Shown: piece after piece, positions 38,724 through 52,755 of the stretch
Layout of the letters: every line of letters begins with the position of its first letter
Numbering within the stretch: position 1 is the first letter of the stretch
Assembly: GCF_011039075.1 (NCBI RefSeq)
Contig: NZ_JAAKEG010000001.1
Span: 1 to 64,000 of the forward strand
Direction of reading: 5' to 3'
Source: Adlercreutzia sp. ZJ304
GTDB lineage: Bacteria > Actinomycetota > Coriobacteriia > Coriobacteriales > Eggerthellaceae
Length of the DNA: 64,000 bases
The notes under the pieces: model-generated
Seen by the model: only the letters and a program-made list of their open reading frames with translations
Database searches by the model: none
Told to the model about the DNA's origin: nothing
Translations under genes and position numbers: made by a program

Positions 38724-41300
38724 ATGCGGAAAGATTTTATGCTCAAACGGGCTGCGTGTGTAGTTCTATCTACAACTTTAGCTTGCACGTTTTGCCCTTA
38801 TGTTGCTTTTGCGTCAGAAGATAACGCAATAGACACTGTGCAGCTGCAGGCAGAATCGAAGATAAGCACAACTGAAATAGAGCCCAGCGAAGATGTTATA
38901 CACGCAAGTGTGTCTATTGATAAAAGTGCGCCTAAAGCTATGTTTAGCTACAACAATCTTATCTTCCAAATAAATGAAGATGCGGAAAACACTGTAACTT
39001 TGCTCGGTTTTGGTGCAAAGCCACAAAACGTGCTAGAAATTCCCGAAACTGTAGTGTATGGCAATGTTGAATATATAGTAACGAACATTAGTACGCTTGC
39101 GCAAATGGGGGGGGGGTTCTGTGATTCTGCGCTAGAACCTAGCGACCCCACAGAAGCTCAAAAATCTTCCAATTCCGATAAAAATTCAAACCCTTATATA
39201 ACCGAATATTATGCAGATGCCGAAAAAGCGGCAGATGTAAGCTCCATAACCATTCCTGCCACAGTTCAATCAATAGATGTGGCATTCTTTCAGCTATTTC
39301 CTAATGCCGCAAATATTGAAGTGGCGGCAGACAATCCCAATTATCAAAGCTATAACGGCATTGTTTTTAGTGCCGATTTATCTAGCCTCACCCTCGTCCC
39401 GGAGGGTATAGAGGGCACAGCCGTGCTCCCCACAGAATTGACCAACGTCCCTGCTTGCGTCTTTTCCCGTTGCACCAAGCTTTCGGTCATAACTGTTCAA
39501 AATGGGGGCACGGCAACATCTAGTGCCTATGTATCTTCGGGCGGTATCTTATATACAGCTGATAAAACTACTCTTGTGGCTGCTCCTGCTGGAATTGGCG
39601 CTAGCGTAGTTATAGACGAAGAATGCACAGCCATTGCGCAAGGAGCCTTTGTTGGAAACAAAGACTTGTCCACAATAATTGCAAAAGGCAATGTTGCGAA
39701 CATAGCCACAGAAGACAAAACGCACCTTGGTGCATTTGATGCGCAAGTTGTATCTGGCGCAACAGTGGTACTTTCCGCTAACTCAGACCGAAGCGTTTGG
39801 GAAAAAGCTGGCTTTGTAAACTTTGAAGAACCGGTAAGTGTAGGAGATTCAGTTACCCCTGATGCGGACGGTCTTGCGTTTACGGTGCTTCCTAACTACA
39901 CGTTATCGTGCTATTGGGCAGGAGATAAAGCGCATGTGCCTAGCACACTTGTAATACCAGATTATGGAATTATTAAGGGTGTGCCTTATAACATCTCTGC
40001 AATAGGAGACGAAGCGTTCGAAGGTGCTTCAAATTTACAAGCCGTACAATTGCCAAAGACAATTGATTCAGTAGGCAAGCGCGCTTTTGCGAACTGCGAA
40101 AATCTGTCTTACGTAGAGCTAAATGCTTCAATTACTGCGCTTCCAGCGGGCGTATTTGCTAACACCTCTCTTGCAAGTGTGGTGTTGCCAGCATCTATCG
40201 AATCGATAGAAAGCGAAGCTTTTGCGGGAGTAAGCAACACGACAATAGTTCAGTTAGGCGCAATTGAAAACATTGCAGAAGATGCCCTTGAGGGTGCGTC
40301 GAACGTAGATGTGTACGTGCCTTATAACAGCCAAACTGAAACCTATATGTGGAACACATCTCTTCCTATTCAGAACAACCATGTAATTCCTTATGGCATT
40401 AAGTTTGCAGATGGAATAGACAGTCTGCAAACAGGGGACGAGGTTGAACTGTTTGGAGCGGGCGGATATCTGTATGCAACAGGTAAAGTAAAAGCAAACA
40501 TAAGCTATGACGCAAACTGCATTAGTATTGACACTAAAAACAATACTCTAAGTGCAAAGCGAGACGGTGCGTTTACTGTAAATGTAGACTTGTCTATTAC
40601 AGTGCCGGAAGTTTTGCCTACAGGAACAGAATATAAGAATGTAAAACTAACTCCTGCATCATACGGTGGGCAGGCTTCCAGCGCACCAGCCCAAACATCT
40701 ACCATACATAGAAGCGTTCGCGCGCTAAATGAAACTCTTAGGGGTAGTGTGTCAACTCCTAAAGTTGCAGCGGAAGATATGCTGTCTATTACGGTTCCTA
40801 TCTATGTAACATTTGGTGGGGATGAGGGTGTTGATGTATCAAAGGAAAGCAATCTTGCGCAGCCTATAACTACAGAGACTTTTATCAGGAGTAACGGTGC
40901 TGCATGCACACTTGAGAGTCTTACATGTGTGGAGGCAGAAGCGGGTAGCGCGCAGAAAGTCTTAAAGACAAATGCTGGCACGCTTGATGCACAATCAGAT
41001 CTGTTTAGCATTCTTGGAAATGGTGATGCATCGTCTGTCAATTTTGGCTACAGCGCAAATAACACGCTTGATAGTACAGCCCTTACCAGCATTCAAGATA
41101 CATTCACGTTAGCTGCATCTTCTGCAGCCTTACCTACAGAACAAAAATTCTCATATCGTCTAAACCTAAGCAGCGGTGGTGCATCAATTAAGACCAGAAG
41201 CGAACTAGAAAGTTCTCTGGGAGCAATAGATAAAACAAAAACTCACCCTCTAGTCTTACTTACTTTCACATTTAAGAAAGCCGACACCAACACAAACTAA
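38724..41300 (+). CDS. Secreted BspA-type leucine-rich repeat surface protein with G10 tract
   Basis: An 858-residue protein with a signal peptide (about 1-30, ending near AFAS). Residues about 160-570 contain two blocks of BspA-type (LRR_5) repeats, such as ISAIGDEAFEGASNLQAVQL and VGKRAFANCENLSYVEL. Residues about 690-858 are a beta-rich domain beginning LSITVPIYVTF and ending LVLLTFTF, which resembles parts of the next three secreted proteins. No LPxTG or membrane anchor is visible. A run of ten G (39107-39116) encodes MGGG and sits before an Asp/Ser-rich insert. A one-base slip either way hits a stop within eight codons, so expression may vary by phase. The start could also be ATG 38739. 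Confidence 0.8.
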   Translation: MRKDFMLKRAACVVLSTTLACTFCPYVAFASEDNAIDTVQLQAESKISTTEIEPSEDVIHASVSIDKSAPKAMFSYNNLIFQINEDAENTVTLLGFGAKPQNVLEIPETVVYGNVEYIVTNISTLAQMGGGFCDSALEPSDPTEAQKSSNSDKNSNPYITEYYADAEKAADVSSITIPATVQSIDVAFFQLFPNAANIEVAADNPNYQSYNGIVFSADLSSLTLVPEGIEGTAVLPTELTNVPACVFSRCTKLSVITVQNGGTATSSAYVSSGGILYTADKTTLVAAPAGIGASVVIDEECTAIAQGAFVGNKDLSTIIAKGNVANIATEDKTHLGAFDAQVVSGATVVLSANSDRSVWEKAGFVNFEEPVSVGDSVTPDADGLAFTVLPNYTLSCYWAGDKAHVPSTLVIPDYGIIKGVPYNISAIGDEAFEGASNLQAVQLPKTIDSVGKRAFANCENLSYVELNASITALPAGVFANTSLASVVLPASIESIESEAFAGVSNTTIVQLGAIENIAEDALEGASNVDVYVPYNSQTETYMWNTSLPIQNNHVIPYGIKFADGIDSLQTGDEVELFGAGGYLYATGKVKANISYDANCISIDTKNNTLSAKRDGAFTVNVDLSITVPEVLPTGTEYKNVKLTPASYGGQASSAPAQTSTIHRSVRALNETLRGSVSTPKVAAEDMLSITVPIYVTFGGDEGVDVSKESNLAQPITTETFIRSNGAACTLESLTCVEAEAGSAQKVLKTNAGTLDAQSDLFSILGNGDASSVNFGYSANNTLDSTALTSIQDTFTLAASSAALPTEQKFSYRLNLSSGGASIKTRSELESSLGAIDKTKTHPLVLLTFTFKKADTNTN

Positions 41301-41422
41301 TAGAAGGGTACGCGTTATGGCTTACAGAAAGGGCATCAGTGTATGTCGAAGTGCTCGCGCACCTGCATACACCTAATAGGGCTAACAAACACAAAGCTTA
41401 TGGAAAACAAGCAAGAGGAAGA

Positions 41423-43471
41423 ATGGACACAATTATGAAACGCATATCTTTGGCAAAGCGGAGTGCAAGTGCTTTTAGTGCACTTGCTCTGGCTGCCACG
41501 ATGGTGCCTCTAGCTGGGGCAATACCGGGGGCAGAAGTTGAACAAGCTTATGCTGCTGCCACTCCGGGTAAGCAAATGAACATAACTGCTCCTATGTCAA
41601 TTGAGTTTGGAAGTAGCGCCAGTCGCATATCGGCAGATGCCAGCAATGCTACAACTACATTTAAGCTTCAAAATAAGGGCGAGATTGGCATGGCTGTAAG
41701 TGAGCTGAATTATTTGGCTCCCAATAAATGGAAAGAAGCTAATAATTTTATCTTAAAGGCAAAAGATGAAGGGCAGCCACTTGGTCTTGATAAAGATACT
41801 GACCCTACGCTATTTACCATGTGGGAGGGAAATGGTGCCAACCCCGGTGATGCTACCAAAACCATGAAATTTGACTTTGCCACAGTAGGTGATAAATCTA
41901 TCAAATGGGGAAGCGGCGTACCAAATACTATAGACACTATGATAGATGTGCAGCCATCCAACGAACAGACTTGCACTCTTTATATGGATCTAGCAAGCTC
42001 TAATGCTAAGTTAAATACTAATGCTGCAGTATCGAACTCTTATACCTCGCTCGGAAGTGTGAAGTTCACATTTAGTGAATGCTCTACTGTGGGCGATCTT
42101 ACTGGCTTAAATACCGAACAGTTAAAGACACAAGATTTTTATCTTAAAGACACAAGAAGCGATGCCACCATTACAAAAGATCAAGTTTTCTCGCTTGACC
42201 AAGTAAGTCGCGCTTCTGCAAGTATTAGTAAGTATCAGTACGCCAATGGTGATGGTAACGTAGTTAGCAATTCGCCTTATTATGGTTGGTACAAGGCTCT
42301 GCTTCAAAGCGATATTGATGAACATAAAGATGCTGCTGACTACGAGAAAAGAGTAAACCCGACAAGTGGATATGAGTGCCGTACACATTGGGGATCTCAT
42401 AGCAAGAATCTAGCTGACAACCCTAATGTTGCTCCATATCATCCAGCAAATCGCGATTACGCTACATATGATGTTCGTATTATTGGTCTTTTGCATGATG
42501 ATAAAGCTAATGTTACAGCGGGCGCAAAAAGTAACAACGAGAACGATTTAAAAGAGGGTTCTAAGGCTGGTATTACATTCCAGTTTGTATACATCATGGA
42601 TGAAGGTGATGCGGCGGCTTGGACATATGGTAAGGCACTTTATGGACCATTTCGTTCATGGGGTTATCGCTTTAATTATTCCGATAATGTGAACGAAGGT
42701 AGTGCTGAGAATTGGAGCGTTAACGACGGCTCTACTAACACCAACTATTCAGGTTGGGCTGACTCTGAACTTCGTGAACGCATGAACCAAACTTACAGTG
42801 TTGCTAAAGAAGGTCTTGCCAAGACTTATCGCGAAAAGTATTCCGCAAACTATGATGTTTGGACACCTGAACGAAATACTGGCATTGCTAACAAGGAAAA
42901 GACAATTTATGATTTGGCGCCTGCAGCTCTAACTGAAAAGATGGTTCCTGTTGTTAAAAAAACTGCGCAATTCACTGGAGAATGCACATCAACAACTTCA
43001 GTTGAAGGCGAAAATACAGTTACAACTAACAAACAAGAAGGACAACTCACATACACTTCAGACAAAATGTTTTTAGCTAGCTATGTTGAGTTTAGTGGAG
43101 ATACTGGCGGTGTTGGAGAAAAAGATAGTACCACAACTAAATGGGATTACAACAAAGCTTTGCTTTCCGGTAGTGACGGATCTCAATATGAGTACTATCA
43201 AAGTATTGGTATTGCTCCGACCTCTGCTAATGTGAATCTCACGAAAGTTTATCAGTGGCAAGTTGATAAAAATATACTTGCGCCGACCGTTGATGGTAAT
43301 GGTCCAGTTCGTGATGGTGTTGGGGGAGGTTCACGTAAGGATGGGTTATGGAATACGCGTTCTTTGTACCCCGGAACTACATTTAAAATTATACAAATAG
43401 GTGCGGGTGGTTATTTTGGATGGAACTATGTTGGGAATGGTATGGGTGTCTGTCCCTGCTTCTGTCTCTAA
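41423..43471 (+). CDS. Secreted protein with DUF6273-like C-terminus
   Basis: A 682-residue exported protein. The signal peptide ends near AYA-A (residue about 46). A beta-rich N-terminal domain follows, beginning MNITAPMSIEF and ending LGSVKFTF. The rest is large and Tyr/Asn-rich, and ends in a DUF6273-like tail (LWNTRSLYPG, then GVCPCFCL). ATG 41423 follows GAGGAA; a second ATG at 41435 is possible. An upstream extension in the same frame has no ribosome binding site. It lies between the LRR protein and the repeat protein in the surface block. No anchor seen. Confidence 0.72.
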   Translation: MDTIMKRISLAKRSASAFSALALAATMVPLAGAIPGAEVEQAYAAATPGKQMNITAPMSIEFGSSASRISADASNATTTFKLQNKGEIGMAVSELNYLAPNKWKEANNFILKAKDEGQPLGLDKDTDPTLFTMWEGNGANPGDATKTMKFDFATVGDKSIKWGSGVPNTIDTMIDVQPSNEQTCTLYMDLASSNAKLNTNAAVSNSYTSLGSVKFTFSECSTVGDLTGLNTEQLKTQDFYLKDTRSDATITKDQVFSLDQVSRASASISKYQYANGDGNVVSNSPYYGWYKALLQSDIDEHKDAADYEKRVNPTSGYECRTHWGSHSKNLADNPNVAPYHPANRDYATYDVRIIGLLHDDKANVTAGAKSNNENDLKEGSKAGITFQFVYIMDEGDAAAWTYGKALYGPFRSWGYRFNYSDNVNEGSAENWSVNDGSTNTNYSGWADSELRERMNQTYSVAKEGLAKTYREKYSANYDVWTPERNTGIANKEKTIYDLAPAALTEKMVPVVKKTAQFTGECTSTTSVEGENTVTTNKQEGQLTYTSDKMFLASYVEFSGDTGGVGEKDSTTTKWDYNKALLSGSDGSQYEYYQSIGIAPTSANVNLTKVYQWQVDKNILAPTVDGNGPVRDGVGGGSRKDGLWNTRSLYPGTTFKIIQIGAGGYFGWNYVGNGMGVCPCFCL

Positions 43472-43486
43472 TTTCTAAATAAACAA

Positions 43487-43512
43487 GCCTGCTGAGCTAA
43501 TGCTCGGCAGGC
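43487..43512 (+). terminator. Hairpin after the DUF6273-like gene
   Basis: An 11-bp stem with one G-U pair (GCCTGCTGAGC/GCTCGGCAGGC) and a 4-nt loop. Only a weak T-run follows. Confidence 0.5.
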
Positions 43513-43558
43513 AAATCTTGGCATGCAATCAAACAACTAGAAACAAGGCGATTTTGCA

Positions 43559-45790
43559 ATGAAAGATACTAGAGGTATACATAAAAAGCGTTTAGGGTAT
43601 CGCTATGCTTTCGCAGGTGCGGTCGCCTTGGCATGCACATCTGTGTTCTTTGGGGGTGGATGCGCTCAGGCTGCATATGCAAATGAAATGCAGTCGATTT
43701 CTACAATGGGTGTGTGGGTTGACCCCAGCCGAGATGCTAGTGCGTTTAACTCTGAAACGAGCATGGCAACACCCTGTGCAAGCATAGATATAGAGTCTGA
43801 AGTTAGAGTTTGGACCCAGTCAGAAGAAGATGCAAACACAAGCACATCTGCAGGAAACGCTTCTGCTTCATCCGAGTTAGCTTTGTCTTCAGAAGTAGGT
43901 ATATGGGTAGATGTTTACGAACGTGAAAGCGGCAACACTGTTGCTGGTAATGCTTCCGCAACAACAGAACTAGAAACATCCACCAATGTTGGTGTATGGG
44001 TTGAAACAGAAGAAGACCCTGACGCTGGTAACTCTGCAAGTGGCGTAACTGGTACAACTTCTGATTCTTTAACTATCCAGTCTGAAGTTGGTATTTGGGT
44101 TGATATTCCTGAAAGTGAAAGCGAAAGTGGCAACACTGCTGCTGGCAACACTGCTACAACAACAGAACTAGAGACATCCACTAATGTTGGTGTATGGGTT
44201 GAAGCAGAAGAAGACCCTGACGCGCCTAACTCTGCAAGTGGTGTTACGGGTACGACTTCGGATGAACTAATTGTTCAATCTGAAGTTGGCATCTGGGTTG
44301 ATATCCCTGAAAACGAAAGCAGCAATGGTGTTGTAATAACAGAACTAGAAACATCAACAAATGTCGGTGTGTGGGTTGAGGCTGAAGATGATCCTGACGC
44401 TGGTAATTCTGCAAGTGGCGTAACTGGTACAACTTCTGATTCTTTAACTGTCCAGTCTGAAGTAGGCATTTGGGTTGATATTCCTGAAAGCGAAAGCGAC
44501 AACTCTGCTGCTGGCAATACTGCTACAACGACAGAGCTTGAAACATCCACTAATGTTGGTGTGTGGGTTGAAACAGAAGAAGACCCTAATGCGGGCAATT
44601 CTGCAAGTGGTGTAACGGGTACAACTTCAGACGAGCTGACTGTTCAATCCGAAGTAGGCATTTGGGTTACACCTGATAATGGCAACAGTTCGTCTGGTGT
44701 ATATGACCCAACTACATCGCCGACACTTGATGTATCAACTAATGTTGGCGTTTGGGTAGACCCGGTTGGAGATGCTACATTTGAGGGCGAAAATACAGCA
44801 TCGCCTCAAACTACGCTCGGTATTCGCCTTAGTGTTCCAGATACTTTAGATGTGACCCTTGATCCAAATGTTGGTACAGACTCAAGTGCGGGCTGGCAAG
44901 GAAGCGACGCGTCCGGGAACACTACTTGGGACCCGAGCAGTTCTACTAGCGAAGTTGATAGCGGAACAAAACTAGGCGATGTGCTGCACGCAGCAGGCAC
45001 ACCGCAGCGACCGGGGTATCTCTTTGGTGGTTGGTATACAGACAAAGAATGTTCGCCCACCGCAAAGGCAGACCCGGATACGTTAGTTACAGAAGATATG
45101 CCTCTATATGCACAGTGGATTGCAATAACTGATGTAGAAGTCCCGATAGACGTACATCTAAACATCAAGCAAGACAGCGCAGATACATTCACTGTAACAA
45201 CCGATAAAGACACCAAGTTTGAAAGCAGAAGTTCGCTTCCTGTGCAGATTGACAATGTGTCTATTAAGAACGACGCGCAAACTTCAACGCGCACGCAAAA
45301 TGCAAAGGATATGCTTGGCAGCAGCGATATAAGCAATGTGAAGCTTCATGTTGCGGCTGCGCAAAGCGATGACACTTACGAGCTAGCGGTAAAAATAGAC
45401 GAATTAACTGGTCTTGCAACACTAGATATAACGAACGACACGAACAGGGCAGTTTATTCGCTTCCGCTAAGCGATGCTCTGTCTAATGCAGGCGCTTATG
45501 AGGGCGCTTCTAAGCTAGTTATTCCTGCTGCCACATTCTACGAAAAAGACGGTGTAGCCGTTAAAGAGGCAGATGGCTCTTGGAAGCTAGACGAGGGCAC
45601 CTTAGACGTTCTTTATGCAATAAGCGGCTTTAACAGCAACACTTTGAGCTATTCGGCTGACTCTGTAGAGATCGCAAAGCTTGTCTACACGATATCTATT
45701 CAAGGTGACCCAATAGATACAGAGGTAAAGCTGGTAAGTGAATCGGGCGGCATGGAAGATGCTCCATCAATTCCGGGCGCTGGGAACTAG
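43559..45790 (+). CDS. Secreted repeat protein with 12 'GVWV/GIWV' motifs
   Basis: A 743-residue exported protein with a signal peptide (ends near AYANE). Residues about 50-420 contain twelve copies of a short hydrophobic motif, alternating NVGVWVE and EVGIWVD (one degenerate, RVWT). They are separated by Asp/Glu/Ser/Asn/Gly linkers of roughly 25-35 residues, many almost identical (GNSASGVTGTTSD). Next comes an InlB/Flg_new-type beta-grasp repeat (GYLFGGWYTDKECS ... LYAQW, about 480-525). A beta-rich C-terminal domain opens VEVPIDVHL and ends KLVYTISI, like its neighbours. No anchor visible. The DNA repeats are nearly identical, which favours length variation by recombination. Confidence 0.75.
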   Translation: MKDTRGIHKKRLGYRYAFAGAVALACTSVFFGGGCAQAAYANEMQSISTMGVWVDPSRDASAFNSETSMATPCASIDIESEVRVWTQSEEDANTSTSAGNASASSELALSSEVGIWVDVYERESGNTVAGNASATTELETSTNVGVWVETEEDPDAGNSASGVTGTTSDSLTIQSEVGIWVDIPESESESGNTAAGNTATTTELETSTNVGVWVEAEEDPDAPNSASGVTGTTSDELIVQSEVGIWVDIPENESSNGVVITELETSTNVGVWVEAEDDPDAGNSASGVTGTTSDSLTVQSEVGIWVDIPESESDNSAAGNTATTTELETSTNVGVWVETEEDPNAGNSASGVTGTTSDELTVQSEVGIWVTPDNGNSSSGVYDPTTSPTLDVSTNVGVWVDPVGDATFEGENTASPQTTLGIRLSVPDTLDVTLDPNVGTDSSAGWQGSDASGNTTWDPSSSTSEVDSGTKLGDVLHAAGTPQRPGYLFGGWYTDKECSPTAKADPDTLVTEDMPLYAQWIAITDVEVPIDVHLNIKQDSADTFTVTTDKDTKFESRSSLPVQIDNVSIKNDAQTSTRTQNAKDMLGSSDISNVKLHVAAAQSDDTYELAVKIDELTGLATLDITNDTNRAVYSLPLSDALSNAGAYEGASKLVIPAATFYEKDGVAVKEADGSWKLDEGTLDVLYAISGFNSNTLSYSADSVEIAKLVYTISIQGDPIDTEVKLVSESGGMEDAPSIPGAGN
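43730..44770 (+). repeat. Intragenic tandem repeats coding for the GVWV/GIWV motifs
   Basis: The composite unit is about 180 bp (two motifs plus linkers), repeated about four times with high identity; shorter variants lie at both ends. The reading frame is kept across all copies. Confidence 0.8.
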
Positions 45791-45812
45791 GGCAAATACA
45801 ACTTATAGGTAA

Positions 45813-46454
45813 ATGATAGACGGGAAGAAGATGACAGGCGATATAAACAACAATACACAAAAACCTAATGTATCAGGGCGTGGCATGAAGGTGCCGGGTG
45901 CAGATAGAGCGCCGCAAACGACAGCGCCCAAGCAGCGGGTACGCACGTCAAGCAAGCCTCCTAAAAAGCGCACAGTAATAATAGTAATAGCGTGTGTGCT
46001 GGTGGCTCTTCTTGTGTGGCTTTTGATATGGCTGTTTGCATGCAATGGGAATAGCCTGCTGGATAAAAACGCAAGGTCGGGACAAGCTCCGTATAAAACT
46101 CAAGAAGAGATGCAGGCTGAACTTGACCGCACGGTTGAAGAGGGAATGTTTAACATCTCCATTGCAAGCGTTATTAACTTTGCAGATGGCACATCTTCTG
46201 GCACCGCCTACATCGAAAACGTACCGGGAAATCAGTACATGATGCAGGTAAAGATTACGGATGACGAAACCGGAGAAGTGCTATACGAATCGGGCATTCT
46301 TCAACCTAATCAATACATAGAAAACATCACTCTTGCACGCGATTTAGATGCAGGAAGTTATAACGCTACAGCCACATTTACCGCACTTGATAAGACAACT
46401 TATGAAGAGGTAGGTCAGGCTGCCGCAAAGATAACTCTGAATGTAGAGGGCTAG
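45813..46454 (+). CDS. Single-pass membrane protein with extracellular domain, paralogue 1
   Basis: A 213-residue protein: a cytoplasmic basic N-terminus (1-52), one membrane helix (about 53-75), then an extracellular beta domain (TVEEGMFNISIASVINFADGT, a motif MQVKITDDETGEVLYESG, and LDAGSYNATATFTAL). It is clearly paralogous in its C-terminal 110 residues to the protein at 47871. It is located between two secreted proteins. Domain family not recognised; Ig-like by appearance. It may hold a secreted partner at the cell surface. The start ATG 45813 has a weak ribosome binding site; MTGDIN at 45831 is an alternative. Confidence 0.75.
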   Translation: MIDGKKMTGDINNNTQKPNVSGRGMKVPGADRAPQTTAPKQRVRTSSKPPKKRTVIIVIACVLVALLVWLLIWLFACNGNSLLDKNARSGQAPYKTQEEMQAELDRTVEEGMFNISIASVINFADGTSSGTAYIENVPGNQYMMQVKITDDETGEVLYESGILQPNQYIENITLARDLDAGSYNATATFTALDKTTYEEVGQAAAKITLNVEG

Positions 46455-46467
46455 GGGCGGAATGAAG

Positions 46468-46658
46468 GGAGAGAGCGGGGATATGCGCTGGAGTGAGCAG
46501 GCTGTGGAGAGAGCGGGAATATGCGCTGGAGTGAGCAGGCTGTGGAGAGAGCGGGGATATGCTCAGTCGCTCTGCAGTCCTCGCTCTGCAGAAATGTTCA
46601 CAGAACATTTCTGTTCGCTGCGGAACTCGCTTTGTGAGCACATCCCCGCTCTCTCTCC
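46468..46658. repeat. 38-bp tandem repeat and inverted repeats in an intergenic region
   Basis: A 38-bp unit (starts GGAGAGAGCGGGGATATGCG) occurs at 46468-46505 and 46506-46543, with a partial third copy from 46544. The start of the unit returns inverted at 46642-46658. A 7-bp AAATGTT/AACATTT hairpin lies at 46592-46610. Together with the parS site and the structured block at 46755-46894 this fills the 490 bp between 46455 and 46944, where I see no gene. Confidence 0.75.
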
Positions 46659-46682
46659 AATTCCCTGAAACGCTTTCAAAAA

Positions 46683-46698
46683 TGTTTCACGTGAAACA
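46683..46698. promoter_or_regulatory. parS centromere site (ParB/Spo0J binding)
   Basis: TGTTTCACGTGAAACA is a perfect match to the bacterial parS consensus. It lies inside a 26-bp perfect palindrome (46678-46703). ParB spreads from such sites and loads SMC. parS usually lies near oriC, so this window is probably within the origin region. Confidence 0.9.
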
Positions 46699-46754
46699 TT
46701 TTTAAGAACAACACGGTAACAAGCGGATAGGGAATCCGCTTCTACATAGAACCT

Positions 46755-46894
46755 TGACAATCGAATAGAGGATTAAGTTTGAGCATGAAAAAAGCGTCGG
46801 AGCTAAGGGCACTGCACCCCCTTCGGACGCTTTTAATAGCTGAATTATATCGCATGTTGATCCCGGTATTGGGGAATCTTCTATTCGGTTGTCA
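46755..46894. repeat. Long inverted repeat enclosing a bidirectional terminator-like hairpin
   Basis: 46755-46774 and 46875-46894 are inverted repeats (18 of 20 match). Between them, AAAAGCGTC (46790-46798) pairs with GACGCTTTT (46826-46834) around an inner GC stem. It lies in the leader of the secreted protein at 46945. It could be a folded RNA leader, a bidirectional terminator, or a small mobile element. Confidence 0.5.
46790..46834. terminator. Bidirectional terminator-like hairpin
   Basis: A 9-bp stem flanked by an A-run on the left and T-run on the right, with an inner AAGGG/CCCTT stem. It could stop transcription from either side. Confidence 0.55.
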
Positions 46895-46944
46895 GGGTGC
46901 ATAAGCAAGGACAGATGGCTTTGAAGAATAAAGGAGGAAAAGCC

Positions 46945-47853
46945 ATGAAGAAAACAAGTAAGTTAATAGGTGCATTGGGTCTAAGCGCCGCCTTGATCGT
47001 AGGCACAGCACTACCGGCTTTCGCTGTCGATGAACTGTCGGATGGTATTTTAGAGAAGTCTGATAATCCTAATATCGACAACACTACTAGCTCTACTGAA
47101 ACTACAGGCTCAGCTGATACAACAGTAAAACTGAGCGCTGTGAACACTCAGATTAAGGCAACTGTTCCTGTTCAAATTGCAGCTTATGGCACAATTGGAG
47201 GCGGTGCCTTAATAACACCTCGCGAATACGCCTATACCATTACTAATGAGTGTGACAACAGCGCAAAACTGTATCTAACGGGTATAGATGCAACACTGCT
47301 TTCTGATACTCCTACTGAGTCTACAGGTGTATATAAAGTTGACTGGACTGCTAGCGATAAAACTGAACTAAGTGCGGCTGGTGCCCAAGTTACTCCGCAG
47401 TCAAATACTGTGGATGCTTCTGTAGTGGGAGGAACTAGCGGAAGTAACGCAACACTTCAGCCTGAGTATGGTTCTGTATATGTTCAACTTACAGCAGGTC
47501 AACTAAGCAGCAAGTACAACAATGATGCTGATACCACCAATGACGGAAAAACTTACAAAGAAGGTAAGAAATATATCGATTATGGTAAGCAAACCACTGT
47601 GAAACTTATTCATACTTCAAATTACAGTACAGAAAATAATGTAAATATAGAAATGGATTCTAAAGACACGGAGGGTGCCCAGATTGGTCTTCGTTTAGAG
47701 GGATACAATTCGCAACTTACTGGTCTAGAACCAGACAAACTGATTGAATTGATGAAAATTACATATACCGTTCAAGCTTCTGCTGCTTATGTAGGCGATA
47801 TGGATATGCATACTACTGATACGAATTTTGACTATGTTGGCAAGTTAGCTTAG
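46945..47853 (+). CDS. Secreted protein with the shared beta-rich domain (pilin-like size)
   Basis: A 302-residue exported protein: signal peptide ending PAFAVDE (about residue 27), a Ser/Thr/Asp-rich stretch, then a beta-rich domain opening TQIKATVPVQIAAY and ending MKITYTVQA. These edges resemble the domains in the proteins at 38724, 41423 and 43559. No Cys in the mature part, no sortase motif. ATG 46945 follows AAGGAGG, a strong site that suggests high expression. It lies directly before the membrane-anchored protein at 47871 (17-nt gap) and is likely its partner. A structural subunit of a surface layer or fibre is one guess; no family was recognised. Confidence 0.75.
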   Translation: MKKTSKLIGALGLSAALIVGTALPAFAVDELSDGILEKSDNPNIDNTTSSTETTGSADTTVKLSAVNTQIKATVPVQIAAYGTIGGGALITPREYAYTITNECDNSAKLYLTGIDATLLSDTPTESTGVYKVDWTASDKTELSAAGAQVTPQSNTVDASVVGGTSGSNATLQPEYGSVYVQLTAGQLSSKYNNDADTTNDGKTYKEGKKYIDYGKQTTVKLIHTSNYSTENNVNIEMDSKDTEGAQIGLRLEGYNSQLTGLEPDKLIELMKITYTVQASAAYVGDMDMHTTDTNFDYVGKLA

Positions 47854-47870: not shown

Positions 47871-48680
47871 ATGTCGCGCGATATGGGACAACAAGATAAC
47901 AGAGACACGCATCGGGTAGTAAGCGATCGCGCGAACACCTATGGGATGAGGGCATCTGGATTTAATTCAGGTGCCACATCCTCTGGTTACTATCAGCAGC
48001 AGCCATATACGGTGCAATCGCAGCAAGCGCCTCAGCCTCAAACTCAGCCGCAGCCGCAGCCGCAGCAACCACCGCAACCGCAGCAACCGCAGCAGCCGCA
48101 ATGGTTCCAAGGACCAGATGGCACGCAGTATATTCTGGGACCAGACAACAGGCTATATCCTGTTGCGCCAAGCGACGCTGCACCCAAACCCAAAAAGCAC
48201 AAAGCAGGCTTTTGGGTGGCAATAATACTTTCAATTGTGTGCATTGCGCTAGCTGCAATAGTGGCATTCAACATGTGCACTGAAAAGCCTAAACGGTCAG
48301 GCGAACTGGGCTCTGTTGCCGGCATGAGCGAAGACGAAATAAGAGACGAACTAGATAAAGTTGTACAAGCAGGCATGTTCGACATATCTATTGCCTCTAT
48401 GGCTCAGTTTGAAGACGGCACAAGCAAAGGCGATCTGAAAATAGAAAACCCAGCAACTAACCACTACTTAATGAAAGTAGATATCACGCGAGACGATACC
48501 GGGGAAGTTATCTATTCAACAGACATGATAGAGCCGGGGTACATGATCTATTCGGATGCGCTTTCAAAAGACCTAGATGCTGGCACGTATCAGTGCAGCG
48601 CAACTTTTACGGCGTATGACGAACAAGAAATAGAAGTAGGCAAAGCATCAGCCAAAACAACAATAGTAGTTAAAAACTAG
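47871..48680 (+). CDS. Single-pass membrane protein with extracellular domain, paralogue 2
   Basis: A 269-residue protein: a cytoplasmic N-terminus with a Gln/Pro-rich tract (about 42-77), one membrane helix (about 112-133) and an extracellular beta domain (VVQAGMFDISIASMAQFEDGT, DDTGEVIYSTDMIEPG, LDAGTYQCSATFTAY). The last 110 residues are paralogous to those of the protein at 45813. It is cotranscribed with the secreted protein at 46945. Family unknown. A long imperfect hairpin (48698-48752) follows. Confidence 0.75.
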   Translation: MSRDMGQQDNRDTHRVVSDRANTYGMRASGFNSGATSSGYYQQQPYTVQSQQAPQPQTQPQPQPQQPPQPQQPQQPQWFQGPDGTQYILGPDNRLYPVAPSDAAPKPKKHKAGFWVAIILSIVCIALAAIVAFNMCTEKPKRSGELGSVAGMSEDEIRDELDKVVQAGMFDISIASMAQFEDGTSKGDLKIENPATNHYLMKVDITRDDTGEVIYSTDMIEPGYMIYSDALSKDLDAGTYQCSATFTAYDEQEIEVGKASAKTTIVVKN

Positions 48681-48752: not shown

Positions 48753-48795
48753 TTGCAAAAGAAGGTATAAGGGAAAGCGATTTAGGGAAACAACT

Positions 48796-51700
48796 ATGAA
48801 AACACTCGCTAAAAAGATTGTATCGTGTATGGTGGCTGTGGTGCTCGTCTGCTCGTTTGTTCCTGTGTCTGCTATGGCAAACAGCGCTGACATAAACGAT
48901 GAAGGCATAGGCGAAAAAGCAAGCATAGTAAGTACAGATGCAGCTGTGGCTGACACCACTGTGTACCTAAAAGCTGTCGATACGTCTTATCAGATAGATC
49001 AGGTATCGGGTAGTGGTGTTTGGCTTGAAGGCGAAGATATGTGGGTTCATACCGCCTATGGCGATGAAAGCTGCAATTCTTATCTTGTTAGTTGGTATAG
49101 GCAACCCTATAAGCTAGATCCTAACGCAACAGATGAAAATAGTTATATAGCTGGCAGCGTAGAGACGCTTGTAGAAAATCATGCGGTAACTACACATACC
49201 GATAAATTTGTATTCAATAAATCGTGGGATAAGTCTATAGACCCTACTCAATATAAGTATGTTTACTGGGCTGAAGTGTCGCAGAACGTAAACGGCACAT
49301 GGATTCAAGCAAAAAATACAGCTGAGCCAAGCGATATAACGCGCATGGTAGCGCAGTGGTGGACAGGACCTTTATACGACAAGTACGACGCAATAAATCC
49401 TGCAAATCCGGGAGACTGGACTTGGAGTGCGTGGGGTGCGGTAGATAGCACAATAGGTGCAACCGGTCTTTTCCCGAAGAGCGCTGAACTTCAAAGTGAA
49501 AGCCTAGCTACTAGCCCAGTTTATACAGACATTACATCGGCTGTGCAGGCGAATGAAAATGAACAGGTGTTTGGCGCATGGGATCTGAATATTGTTCCGG
49601 GAGAGGATGCAGACGGTGCGTTCATTAACAGCATCCGCATGACAACGGATGTTACAGACCATGCAAAAGATATTCTGGACGCGCTTGCAAACGGCGAAAT
49701 TTCTGCCGATCAAGCAAAGGCAAAACTGGAAGACAGCTTAAAGCTGTGCAGTTATAAAGAAAACAAATTGGAAAATATACAAACGAAGTATCGCATAGAG
49801 CAAGAAGGTGCGGTTTTTCGCGCTTACTTAGACTACTTTACCGATGATGCAGCCGCGCAGGCATCGGGCAAGCTGGGTATGGTTGTGTTGGTGGGCACAA
49901 CGCAGCCCTCTGGTGTAGATTCACACTATGTAACTTTAGTGGTTAACAAAGACGCAAGTGGAAATGTAAACGGTACAACCAGTGTGTCTGCCGGACAGCA
50001 TGTAGTATATGAAAACCAGTCGCCTACTTATAATTTTGAGCCAGATGCAAAATATTATGGCGAATATAAAGTTGAATATGCCGATGCAACAAATGGCGGC
50101 GCTTGGACAACTTTAACAGCGGGAACAGATTACACATCTGGTGCGAATTTCGTTATGCTTGGTGTGGCAGGTGCAAGCGGAGATGTAGTTCCCACTCTTT
50201 CCGTTTATAAAGCCGATCTGCGTATAACGGTAGAATTTAAAGAGATAACAACACCGCCTTCAGCTGATACTGAATACGATATAACGCTTTCCAAAATTGG
50301 TGGAGCTAGCACAGCGCAGATTACATTCATTGGCTCCGATGGGCGCGAAGTTGTGCTTGCAGCACCGGGTAGTGCTGGCGCGTTTCCAGCTGATGCTGTC
50401 GGTATAGAGGTAGCGCCGCCTGAAGGTTTTAGCGCATCGCATGCGATAGTAACTTGGGCAGACAATTCCACCGAGACGATAAGTTTCAACAACAATGCAG
50501 CGCTTATTAGCTACTTGCAATCGGCGGCTAGCATTGAAATAGTGCTAGAACCAAGCACTTTAGAGCCTAAGTACGTAAACGTAACTATAGATTCTGCTGT
50601 GCGCGCATATTTCGACAACATAGATTCCAATGGTGTACAAACTGTAGAAATTGGCGGTACAGCGTCGTTTAATGTTACGGCACCTGCATGGTCTACAATT
50701 AAAAGCATAAGCGTTAGTGCAAGCGATGGCAGCGCTGTGTCTAGCAATAACGTGCGTGTAGGTGGCATAGGGGAACAAACTGGTTCACTTGTAATCTATA
50801 ACGTAGCGAAGAATTTGCGTGTAAGCGCGCAGTTTGAATACGAAACTCGCAAACTTATAGTGCCCGCTGCATCTGATGTAATGGGCGCAAGCAGCATAGA
50901 TAAAAGTGGCACTTACAATATATCAACCGATCCGAATAATCCGGCGAAAGTTACCGTGCGTTTAGATGCGGGCTATGAACTTCCCGCGACAGGTGTGGTG
51001 CTTACGGGCAAGCTAGGCGGACAAGATATAAGCATGCCGGCTGCTGCTGTTAAGCAAAGCGATGGGTCGTATGTAGTGGTTGTTGACTTGGGTAGCCCTA
51101 CTGTGTCTACTGCTCCGGGAAACTGGGATAAAGATGCAGGCATTACTGTGAACATAGCGCCTACAAAGATGCCTGTTCAGGAAGTGTTTCACAAGATTAA
51201 TACCAGCGTATATGCGGGGCACGAGAATTTCGGCAGCATAACGCAGTCATTTGATGTAAGCGATAACTCAGATGCCTTAGTGGAAATTTTCCCCAAGGAC
51301 GACTATGTTGCAAGCGTTACTGTGGATGGTTTCGCCATAAAAGCGGTAGAGGCGGGCGGCAGTAGCAGCGCTAACATAGTGTTCTACAACGGCACTAACG
51401 AAAACGATGCTGAGCACTACGGCGCGCCAGCTCTTATCATAAAGACAGTTATTGCCGACTATAAAGTTCAAGCGAGTTTTGCTCATAAGACCAACATATC
51501 AAGCGACCAACAGCCGCCCGATGGCGGCTATCGCGATACGGTTGATATTATTAGCAATTGCGATTCTAGCCAAGGAACTATAGAGCCCGGTTCTATTGCA
51601 AGCGTATATAAAGACACAACAAACAAGCTTACTGCAATTCCGGCAGAGCGCCACGAACTTGATAAGCTGGTAGTAGATGGGGTATGCGTGTTCTATGATG

Positions 51701-52755
51701 GCGCCCAGCTAAAAGATGACCCAGATGCGCTAAAGCAGGCAGCAAGTGCAGGCGTTACCTTTGATGCCAGCCAGCAAAAATACTGCATAGAGCGCGATGG
51801 GCATCGCGACTATTTCAGCGTGCAATACAACGAGCAAACCGGTAGCGCCGAAGTTGTATTTAGCGAAGTTCAGGCAAACCATGATTTAAGTGCCGATTTT
51901 GCGCGCTTTAAAGAAGTAGATCTTTATGTTGATAGCGAAGGCGGTTCGGTATTTGCCGAAGGCAAGGTAGACGGCTTGAAGCAGATGCGTTGGAAAATAC
52001 GCAAAGACTTGGAAGTTTATATAACACCAGAGGATGGATATGGTGTGTCTTCAGCCAAACTAATAACAACTGAAGGCGATGGTAGTACCAAAGAAACCGA
52101 CATATCAAACAGCTTAGAAAAGGTAGCTACATCTTCTGTATCAACAAGCACGAACAATAAGCTTCTATCTGATATGGTGGGCGTAGTTACAGGTGCTGAA
52201 AAAGCATATGCGGCAGCTAGCGCTACATCTTATAAGTATGTGGTGCCGTCTTCTCTTATGACCCAGATGGAAGGTGAAAGCGCAATTGTACGTGTTGCGT
52301 TTGCGAAAGACGATACAACTAATGTTCTGCATTCTGTGAAAGTTGACGTTAGGGAAGGCGCAGGCTTTGTGCAGGACGCAAATGGCAACAATGTAAAATC
52401 GGCAAAATTTAGTGTACGCCATGCCGATAACCTAACATTTACACTGGTGCCTAGTTTAAGCACGCCGTATGCCTATGTGCAAATTGGAAACGACAATCGC
52501 ATATATTACGGCAATGCTAAGCAGGTAACTGTTCAAAATGTGCAAGCCGATACGCAAGTTTATATAGACTTTGTAAGCATTCCTTATGCGGGTGACAACA
52601 ATTCTGGTACACGCGCTTTAAAGCACTTGCAAAGCCTTGCCCGCACGGGCGATTTAAGCGCACCGCTTGCTTTCGGTCTTTTGACGGTTGCTTTTGCGGC
52701 TTGTGGCATAGCAATGCTTGCGTCTAACAGGCGGCGCAATGGAGAAGAAGACTAA
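48796..52755 (+). CDS. Giant surface protein with LARTG-type sorting signal
   Basis: A 1319-residue cell-wall protein. It has a signal peptide (about 1-30, ending SAMANS) and a mature region built of many beta-sandwich repeats of the bacterial repeat (Flg_new_2-like) type. These recur as 'x-G-x-I/V ... P ... Y/H ... V-x-V-D-G', for example SQGTIEPGSIASVYKD and HELDKLVVDGV. The C-terminus has LARTG (about 1281-1285), a 20-residue hydrophobic helix and the positively charged end SNRRRNGEED. This is the layout of a sortase substrate but with Ala at the position of Pro. No sortase gene is in the window. ATG 48796 fits the signal peptide; the frame is open further upstream without a binding site. 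It ends the surface block. Confidence 0.82.
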   Translation: MKTLAKKIVSCMVAVVLVCSFVPVSAMANSADINDEGIGEKASIVSTDAAVADTTVYLKAVDTSYQIDQVSGSGVWLEGEDMWVHTAYGDESCNSYLVSWYRQPYKLDPNATDENSYIAGSVETLVENHAVTTHTDKFVFNKSWDKSIDPTQYKYVYWAEVSQNVNGTWIQAKNTAEPSDITRMVAQWWTGPLYDKYDAINPANPGDWTWSAWGAVDSTIGATGLFPKSAELQSESLATSPVYTDITSAVQANENEQVFGAWDLNIVPGEDADGAFINSIRMTTDVTDHAKDILDALANGEISADQAKAKLEDSLKLCSYKENKLENIQTKYRIEQEGAVFRAYLDYFTDDAAAQASGKLGMVVLVGTTQPSGVDSHYVTLVVNKDASGNVNGTTSVSAGQHVVYENQSPTYNFEPDAKYYGEYKVEYADATNGGAWTTLTAGTDYTSGANFVMLGVAGASGDVVPTLSVYKADLRITVEFKEITTPPSADTEYDITLSKIGGASTAQITFIGSDGREVVLAAPGSAGAFPADAVGIEVAPPEGFSASHAIVTWADNSTETISFNNNAALISYLQSAASIEIVLEPSTLEPKYVNVTIDSAVRAYFDNIDSNGVQTVEIGGTASFNVTAPAWSTIKSISVSASDGSAVSSNNVRVGGIGEQTGSLVIYNVAKNLRVSAQFEYETRKLIVPAASDVMGASSIDKSGTYNISTDPNNPAKVTVRLDAGYELPATGVVLTGKLGGQDISMPAAAVKQSDGSYVVVVDLGSPTVSTAPGNWDKDAGITVNIAPTKMPVQEVFHKINTSVYAGHENFGSITQSFDVSDNSDALVEIFPKDDYVASVTVDGFAIKAVEAGGSSSANIVFYNGTNENDAEHYGAPALIIKTVIADYKVQASFAHKTNISSDQQPPDGGYRDTVDIISNCDSSQGTIEPGSIASVYKDTTNKLTAIPAERHELDKLVVDGVCVFYDGAQLKDDPDALKQAASAGVTFDASQQKYCIERDGHRDYFSVQYNEQTGSAEVVFSEVQANHDLSADFARFKEVDLYVDSEGGSVFAEGKVDGLKQMRWKIRKDLEVYITPEDGYGVSSAKLITTEGDGSTKETDISNSLEKVATSSVSTSTNNKLLSDMVGVVTGAEKAYAAASATSYKYVVPSSLMTQMEGESAIVRVAFAKDDTTNVLHSVKVDVREGAGFVQDANGNNVKSAKFSVRHADNLTFTLVPSLSTPYAYVQIGNDNRIYYGNAKQVTVQNVQADTQVYIDFVSIPYAGDNNSGTRALKHLQSLARTGDLSAPLAFGLLTVAFAACGIAMLASNRRRNGEED

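Follow-up and report, generated by a model that had tools for sequence, protein, structure and literature searches.

A seven-gene run in Adlercreutzia sp. ZJ304 is probably a surface-display cassette, phase-variable and present in multiple copies, that is built on a single beta-rich domain, here named D. We give this reading a probability of about 0.6. The run lies in the window, by which we mean the whole 64,000-nucleotide stretch that was analyzed (positions 1 to 64,000 of contig NZ_JAAKEG010000001.1). Its genes, all on the forward (+) strand, are designated w1 (38724, with leucine-rich repeats, LRRs), w2 (41423), w3 (43559), A1 (45813), w5 (46945), A2 (47871) and w7 (48793, the “giant” with a LARTG motif). 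D is common to the products of w1, w2, w3 and w5. A preliminary description, made from the letters alone, had proposed a beta-rich domain in these four proteins, two interleaved membrane-anchored paralogues and a LARTG giant, together forming one unnamed extracellular assembly. All of the named open reading frames (ORFs) are present where they had been placed, and the giant does end in LARTG. The proposal of one unnamed assembly is likewise supported: neither D nor the anchors has a Pfam or NCBIfam family, and a literature search found no published description of the seven-gene cassette. Physical assembly of the products is predicted. Additions to that description are that the cassette is multi-copy, that it has a poly-G switch, that its anchors form clades of fixed position and that it ranges more widely across taxa.

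One domain family in four secreted proteins

The D profile was seeded on the w5 family alone (19 sequences) and iterated over six-frame translations of all collected loci. The iterated hidden Markov model (HMM) reaches the C-termini of large proteins first; w3 follows at E 2.3e-14 (residues 531-719 of its open frame), along with w1 at E 3.9e-5 and the w2 paralogues at their N-termini. A separate profile, built from the C-terminal domain of w1 and the N-terminal domain of w2, picks up small D-only proteins in other genomes, with best E values of 4e-5 and 2e-4. When separate families were compared by hhalign, the w1 and w2 domains matched at 99% (E 1e-19) and the w2 and w5 domains at 87% (E 4e-6). 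Against a broad profile built from 41 D sequences, the w3 domain matched at 88% (E 3e-6), that of w2 at 84% and that of w1 at 36%. Controls taken from the same cassette (the anchors, the N-terminal part of w7 and the C-terminal part of w2) gave at most 0.7% with this profile, unrelated cassette parts stayed at or below 1% over all the hhalign comparisons, and the best E value for reversed sequences was 0.4. The weakest link is that between w3 and the w5 family, for which hhalign gives 2% directly and which only the broader profile connects; because this direct comparison fails, the w3 domain is placed in the family by way of intermediates.

By these profile comparisons, w1, w2, w3 and w5 share one domain family. 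The common domain of the preliminary description is borne out by profile iteration, hhalign and reversed controls, and these comparisons relate the four D domains by sequence, that of w3 through intermediates. D makes up the whole mature part of w5 (about 47140..47781, D profile). It is C-terminal in w1 (about 40782..41282) and w3 (about 45131..45697), and in w2 it is N-terminal, not C-terminal (about 41501..42106). Note that w2 was itself in the training set of the profile that delimits its domain; its paralogues were found independently by the iterated HMM. Neither D nor the anchors matched a known family above threshold in Pfam, NCBIfam or PDB sequences. Weak matches to ZinT and ABC2, below cut-off, were discarded.

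Recurrence of the cassette

The proposal of one assembly had been tied to finding the genes together elsewhere, and they were: in about 11 cassettes of the window's own genome, in several of Adlercreutzia murintestinalis and, as a core, in further Eggerthellaceae and in Clostridia. A search with A1 gave 24 anchor matches in the window's genome (1,998,085 bases, 33 contigs) and 20 in that of A. murintestinalis, a member of the same genus. Contigs C6 and C7 of the former repeat the sequence of C32 (loci L042, L037 and L038 hold the same cassette and flanking genes), which is probably an assembly duplication that would inflate copy counts. Because of this repetition, the anchors were counted as 22 and the cassettes as about 11. 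The gene order w1-w2-w3-A1-w5-A2-w7 recurs across these cassettes, some copies of which end at contig ends. On contig C29 (L035 and L036), the block from w1 to A2 is tandemly duplicated, with copies about 8.3 kb apart and one giant.

The cassettes of A. murintestinalis include L063-L068 and L079, and in other genomes w1-w3 are often a single giant. Among 199 Coriobacteriia genomes, 44 have a match to the anchor profile, in some cases a single distant one. Scanning genome contigs yielded 37 loci, with Adlercreutzia, Gordonibacter, Enteroscipio and Eggerthella sinensis among the carriers. Outside the Eggerthellaceae, the same scan found Anaerotruncus massiliensis (three loci), Christensenella, Faecalibacterium (small D protein and one anchor only) and metagenome-assembled genomes of Oscillospiraceae/Clostridia. 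The core common to Eggerthellaceae and Clostridia is a large D protein, A1, a small D protein, A2 and an LPxTG-type protein. The order in Clostridia is a giant with C-terminal D, an anchor, a small D protein and an anchor, often followed by a protein with a C-terminal transmembrane (TM) segment or LPxTG-like end. Sorting motifs are of the LARTG, LAKTG and LAQTG type in Eggerthellaceae and read LPNTG, IPNTG or IPDTG in Anaerotruncus. In one Eggerthellaceae genome, similar proteins of ~540-680 amino acids stand beside the cassettes L054, L055, L056 and L057; the two that were read are of GGDEF-EAL type, hinting at control by cyclic di-GMP (c-di-GMP).

Two anchor families in fixed positions

The membrane proteins encoded at 45813 and 47871 are paralogues, as had been proposed, with 44% identity. 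An AlphaFold2 model of A1 (45813..46454), the upstream anchor, has a cytoplasmic tail, a TM helix (residues 51-77), a short helix (97-107) and a confident immunoglobulin (Ig)-like domain (residues 121-213), for which the block-mean predicted local distance difference test score (pLDDT) is at least 93. A2 (47871..48680), the downstream anchor, was identified by the A1 search and the tree and is predicted to have a proline/glutamine-rich cytoplasmic tail, a TM segment and an Ig-like domain.

In a tree of 103 anchor domains, those that could be classified by position separate into a clade of 44 upstream anchors (support 0.95) and a clade of 40 downstream anchors (0.90). The exceptions are one upstream anchor, from L091 of Christensenella, and, outside both clades, three deep downstream sequences from Clostridia. 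At L091, four anchors flank the small D protein, and they break the rule of upstream and downstream clades. Judged from this tree, anchor position is an old, conserved property, and this suggests that A1 and A2 have different partners.

The same arrangement bears on another account, in which the proteins are independent and merely share a secreted beta fold by duplication, their clustering reflecting co-expression only. Beta-sandwich domains are widely reused, and the copies of D are highly divergent (mean column identity 16%), as such an account would allow. A gene order that stays fixed, and anchor clades that follow position in two phyla, are, however, unexpected for unlinked functions, and we consider this explanation very improbable.

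A poly-G tract within w1

w1 (38724..41300) encodes a secreted, adhesin-like protein with BspA-type LRRs (Pfam LRR_5, 3.4e-28) and C-terminal D, and is predicted to be phase-variable. By tract scan and frame modeling, an in-frame tract of 10 G lies at 39107..39116, after a conserved stretch, IP..V..G...Y.V..I. When tracts of 8, 9, 11 or 12 G were modeled in its place, the product was 132-137 amino acids long instead of 858. The 2.0-Mb genome has six sites of at least eight consecutive G (G8+), and four of these are inside w1 genes (binomial P about 8e-8, with the w1 genes taken as ~17 kb of the genome). The remaining two lie in a SipW-type signal peptidase gene (TIGR02228) and a murD-like gene. 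Tract lengths in the four w1 genes are 10 G (window), 8 G (L031), 9 G (L032) and 11 G (L033); the first two genes are intact, and in those of L032 and L033 the frame breaks precisely at the tract. A. murintestinalis has a tract at the homologous position as well (L065, intact), as do three loci of a further Eggerthellaceae genome (L056, intact; L054 and L057, broken). The enrichment argument is strongest in the window's genome, because its high-GC relatives have far more G9 sites genome-wide.

The tract lies within an ORF, is rare elsewhere in this genome and sets the frame by its length, and both intact and broken alleles occur between paralogues and species, as in contingency genes. We infer slipped-strand phase variation, of which this sequence pattern is the signature, with switching within populations. 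The poly-G contingency loci of Neisseria, Campylobacter and Helicobacter similarly have a G homopolymer in the ORF of a surface protein, with in-frame and broken alleles; here, in contrast, the tract is in a Gram-positive gut actinomycetote and stands at the same site in paralogous cassettes. The SipW-type signal peptidase gene among the six sites is at L111:3892-5197 (contig C28 of the window's genome, near 52804; TIGR02228, 9e-21); its open frame starts at a 9-G tract and is apparently frame-broken. This gene adjoins those for a 533-amino-acid secreted protein and an LRR-like protein.

Other genes and elements of the cassette

w2 (41423..43471) starts at ATG 41423 within a listed GTG ORF at 41339. 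It encodes a secreted protein with N-terminal D and a C-terminal DUF6273-like domain (42725..43468), assigned by a Pfam match below cut-off (E 0.0014) and by its paralogue in L041, which matches DUF6273 above cut-off (2.7e-7). DUF6273 appears in papers as a target domain of phage diversity-generating retroelements (DGRs); here such a domain is C-terminal, in w2 and in its paralogue. DGR diversification of w2 was considered and rejected: PF00078 (reverse transcriptase) has no match in the window's genome, and a search there for template-like copies of the 3' end of w2 gave none. Since this genome has no reverse transcriptase, there is no sign of such diversification.

w3 (43559..45790) encodes a secreted protein with repeats of the S-x-V-G-I/V-W-V type, one Listeria-Bacteroides repeat and C-terminal D; several imperfect copies of the former repeat lie in its N-terminal half (43660-44850). 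w5 (46945..47853), starting at ATG 46945 within a listed GTG ORF at 46897, encodes a small secreted protein composed of a signal peptide and D only. w7 (48793..52755) encodes a secreted protein of about 1320 residues in which LARTG (52636..52650) is followed by a hydrophobic stretch and a basic tail, as in sortase substrates, and sortases are encoded in the genome. LRR_5 in w1, the Listeria-Bacteroides repeat in w3 and sub-threshold DUF6273 in w2 are all that Pfam recognizes in the cassette proteins, and an NCBIfam search of the cassette proteins gave nothing decisive beyond Pfam. The repeats of w1 and w3 are those of BspA-like LRR and Listeria-Bacteroides repeat surface proteins; in the cassette, by contrast, such repeats are coupled with D as well as with a conserved anchor module.

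A repeat search found an element at 46751..46898 with 24-nt inverted repeats (TTGACAATCGAATAG...CTATTCGGTTGTCA) and 100 nt between the arms. Elements with the same ends are present at L031:6216-7065 and L032:6913-7746. The exact end motifs occur 10 times in the genome, always within cassettes, two of the occurrences being the same site on duplicated contigs. The spacers vary from about 100 to 790 nt, and some contain small toxin/antitoxin-like ORFs. Because the spacers differ and some hold such ORFs, an invertible promoter at 46751-46898 was set aside; from their sequences, the elements look more like small mobile elements. Promoter and terminator scans gave results not above chance.

Possible structural likeness of D to donor-strand filaments

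The w5 model has a mean pLDDT of 68, with values of 82-89 in the best parts of the core. CanA cannulae and archaeal bundling pili are donor-strand filaments. With this medium-quality model as the query, VIA-align returned Pyrobaculum bundling pili (7ueg; Z 8.2, root-mean-square deviation (rmsd) 7.6, 141 residues aligned), the Sulfolobus thread (7pnb; Z 8.2, rmsd 8.6, 141 aligned), the CanA cannula (7uii; Z 6.9, rmsd 4.7, 146 aligned), FimA/FimG type 1 pilins (Z 5.5-6) and TasA (8aur; Z 4.8, rmsd 6.3, 166 aligned). TasA and the archaeal threads polymerize by donor-strand complementation (PMC9674648, PMC9715654). Since the best Foldseek E value was 0.025 and Z values below 8 are common by chance, we take the likeness as a lead only.

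That D polymerizes into a thin filament on the surface, by donor-strand complementation, is plausible and unproven. Such a filament would have w5 as its repeating subunit, w1, w2 and w3 as adhesin-bearing subunits comparable to FimH-like tips, and A1 and A2 as membrane-tethered PapD-like chaperones; taken jointly, we hold the polymerization and these roles to be rather unlikely. The best structural matches of w5 are uniform in kind, all being donor-strand filaments (Z 4.8-8.2), the D sequences have a conserved extra strand-like stretch before the first core strand, and the large proteins with a pilin-like end resemble the adhesin-pilin architecture. Against this stand the quality of the model and the Foldseek value; moreover, Z values under 8 may mirror a common arrangement, and the two top matches have large rmsd. 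Donation of an N-terminal strand in trans to the next subunit is hypothetical, the models being of monomers, and the cassette, unlike the known donor-strand systems, contains no usher, TapA equivalent or SipW gene and has a sortase-type protein instead. The Pfam model for camelysin/TasA has no match among the 41 D members.

FaeE, FimC and PapD match the A1 model at Z ~7, which favors a chaperone role, but GbpA comes first (Z 8.3) and alpha-2-macroglobulin is similarly close, both of them unrelated Ig domains. The best E value of Pfam PapD_N against the anchors is a weak 0.13, and the anchors do not have the two-domain soluble periplasmic build of PapD, their N-terminal TM helix being followed by a single Ig-like domain. 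On the model, the likeness of A1 to pilus chaperones is a generic Ig-like resemblance. An undescribed class of donor-strand filaments in Gram-positive gut bacteria, with strand-exchanging D, PapD-like A1 and A2 that chaperone and order the subunits, incorporated adhesin-bearing D proteins and poly-G slippage that selects the LRR adhesins displayed, is a little less probable than the filament reading above.

Comparison with WxL clusters

The closest known arrangement is that of the WxL clusters (csc of Lactiplantibacillus plantarum, the elr operon of Enterococcus faecalis). These comprise a small WxL protein, a large protein with C-terminal WxL, a WxL-interacting protein (WxLIP) that combines Ig-like folds with a TM helix, and often an LPxTG protein (PMC9772566, PMC10599100). 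L. plantarum has several clusters of this type per genome (PMC1534035). The cassette is similar in having a small domain-only protein, large proteins in which the domain stands beside adhesin modules including LRRs, an Ig-like membrane protein and an LPxTG protein, and both occur as several clusters per genome, mostly in gut bacteria. The cassette differs in its two fixed-place anchors with N-terminal TM helices and in the poly-G switch of its LRR gene.

The correspondence is one of architecture only. PF13731 (WxL) has no match in the 41 D members at E≤1 and none in the 8 genomes with the cassette that were searched; PF06030 (DUF916, of WxLIP) has none in the same 8 genomes or among the anchors. 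DUF3324 is absent from the Pfam matches of 17 anchors, no genome-wide search for it having been made. Alignment of D with WxL domains by hhalign gave 0.1%. WxL did not appear in the VIA-align list, an absence that is uninformative. For want of any sequence relation, membership of the WxL clusters was rejected; the mode of working may be similar. In a WxL-like platform, a scheme put forward for the small and large WxL proteins and WxLIP, D domains would bind the wall or the anchors singly and without polymerization, with adhesin domains facing outward. We regard such a platform as possible but doubtful. It would account for the nearly identical parts list and the repetition of clusters within a genome (PMC10599100, PMC9772566, PMC1534035). 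Besides the missing WxL and WxLIP homology, it sits poorly with anchors in which a single Ig-like domain follows an N-terminal TM helix, in place of DUF916-DUF3324-TM, and with the N-terminal position of D in w2.

Proposed mechanism

From the common domain, the repetition and conserved order of the cassettes, the anchor clades and the tract with its frame states, we infer the following steps for a surface-display cassette. D would be a common assembly or docking module, and the LRR, DUF6273-like and repeat regions would be variable, outward-facing parts that bind targets. A1 and A2 would hold, chaperone or order the D proteins at the membrane, A1 probably with the preceding large D protein as its partner and A2 with the small D protein or the giant. 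The w7 giant would provide the link between complex and wall by way of a sortase. Individual adhesins would be turned on or off by slippage of the G tract, so that a population would display differing mixtures of them.

Several points weigh against the cassette reading. Interaction, secretion and expression of its proteins are all predicted. The differences in tract length are between paralogues and species, and in a draft genome errors in homopolymer assembly may contribute to them. Only some w1 copies carry a G8+ tract, and no poly-G switch was traced in the Clostridia loci. The w3 domain is the most distant member of D, joined to the family by sequence intermediates alone, and some relatives carry just a pair of D and anchor.

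Significance

The cassette gives a testable system to the dark surface proteins of gut Eggerthellaceae (Adlercreutzia, Gordonibacter, Eggerthella and Enteroscipio relatives) and of Clostridia. With about 11 copies occupying several percent of a 2-Mb genome, it is a large investment. A poly-G switch in an adhesin gene of gut Actinomycetota, if true, would account for surface variation against host immunity or phages. The two fixed-position anchor families offer genetic and structural studies a clean point of entry.

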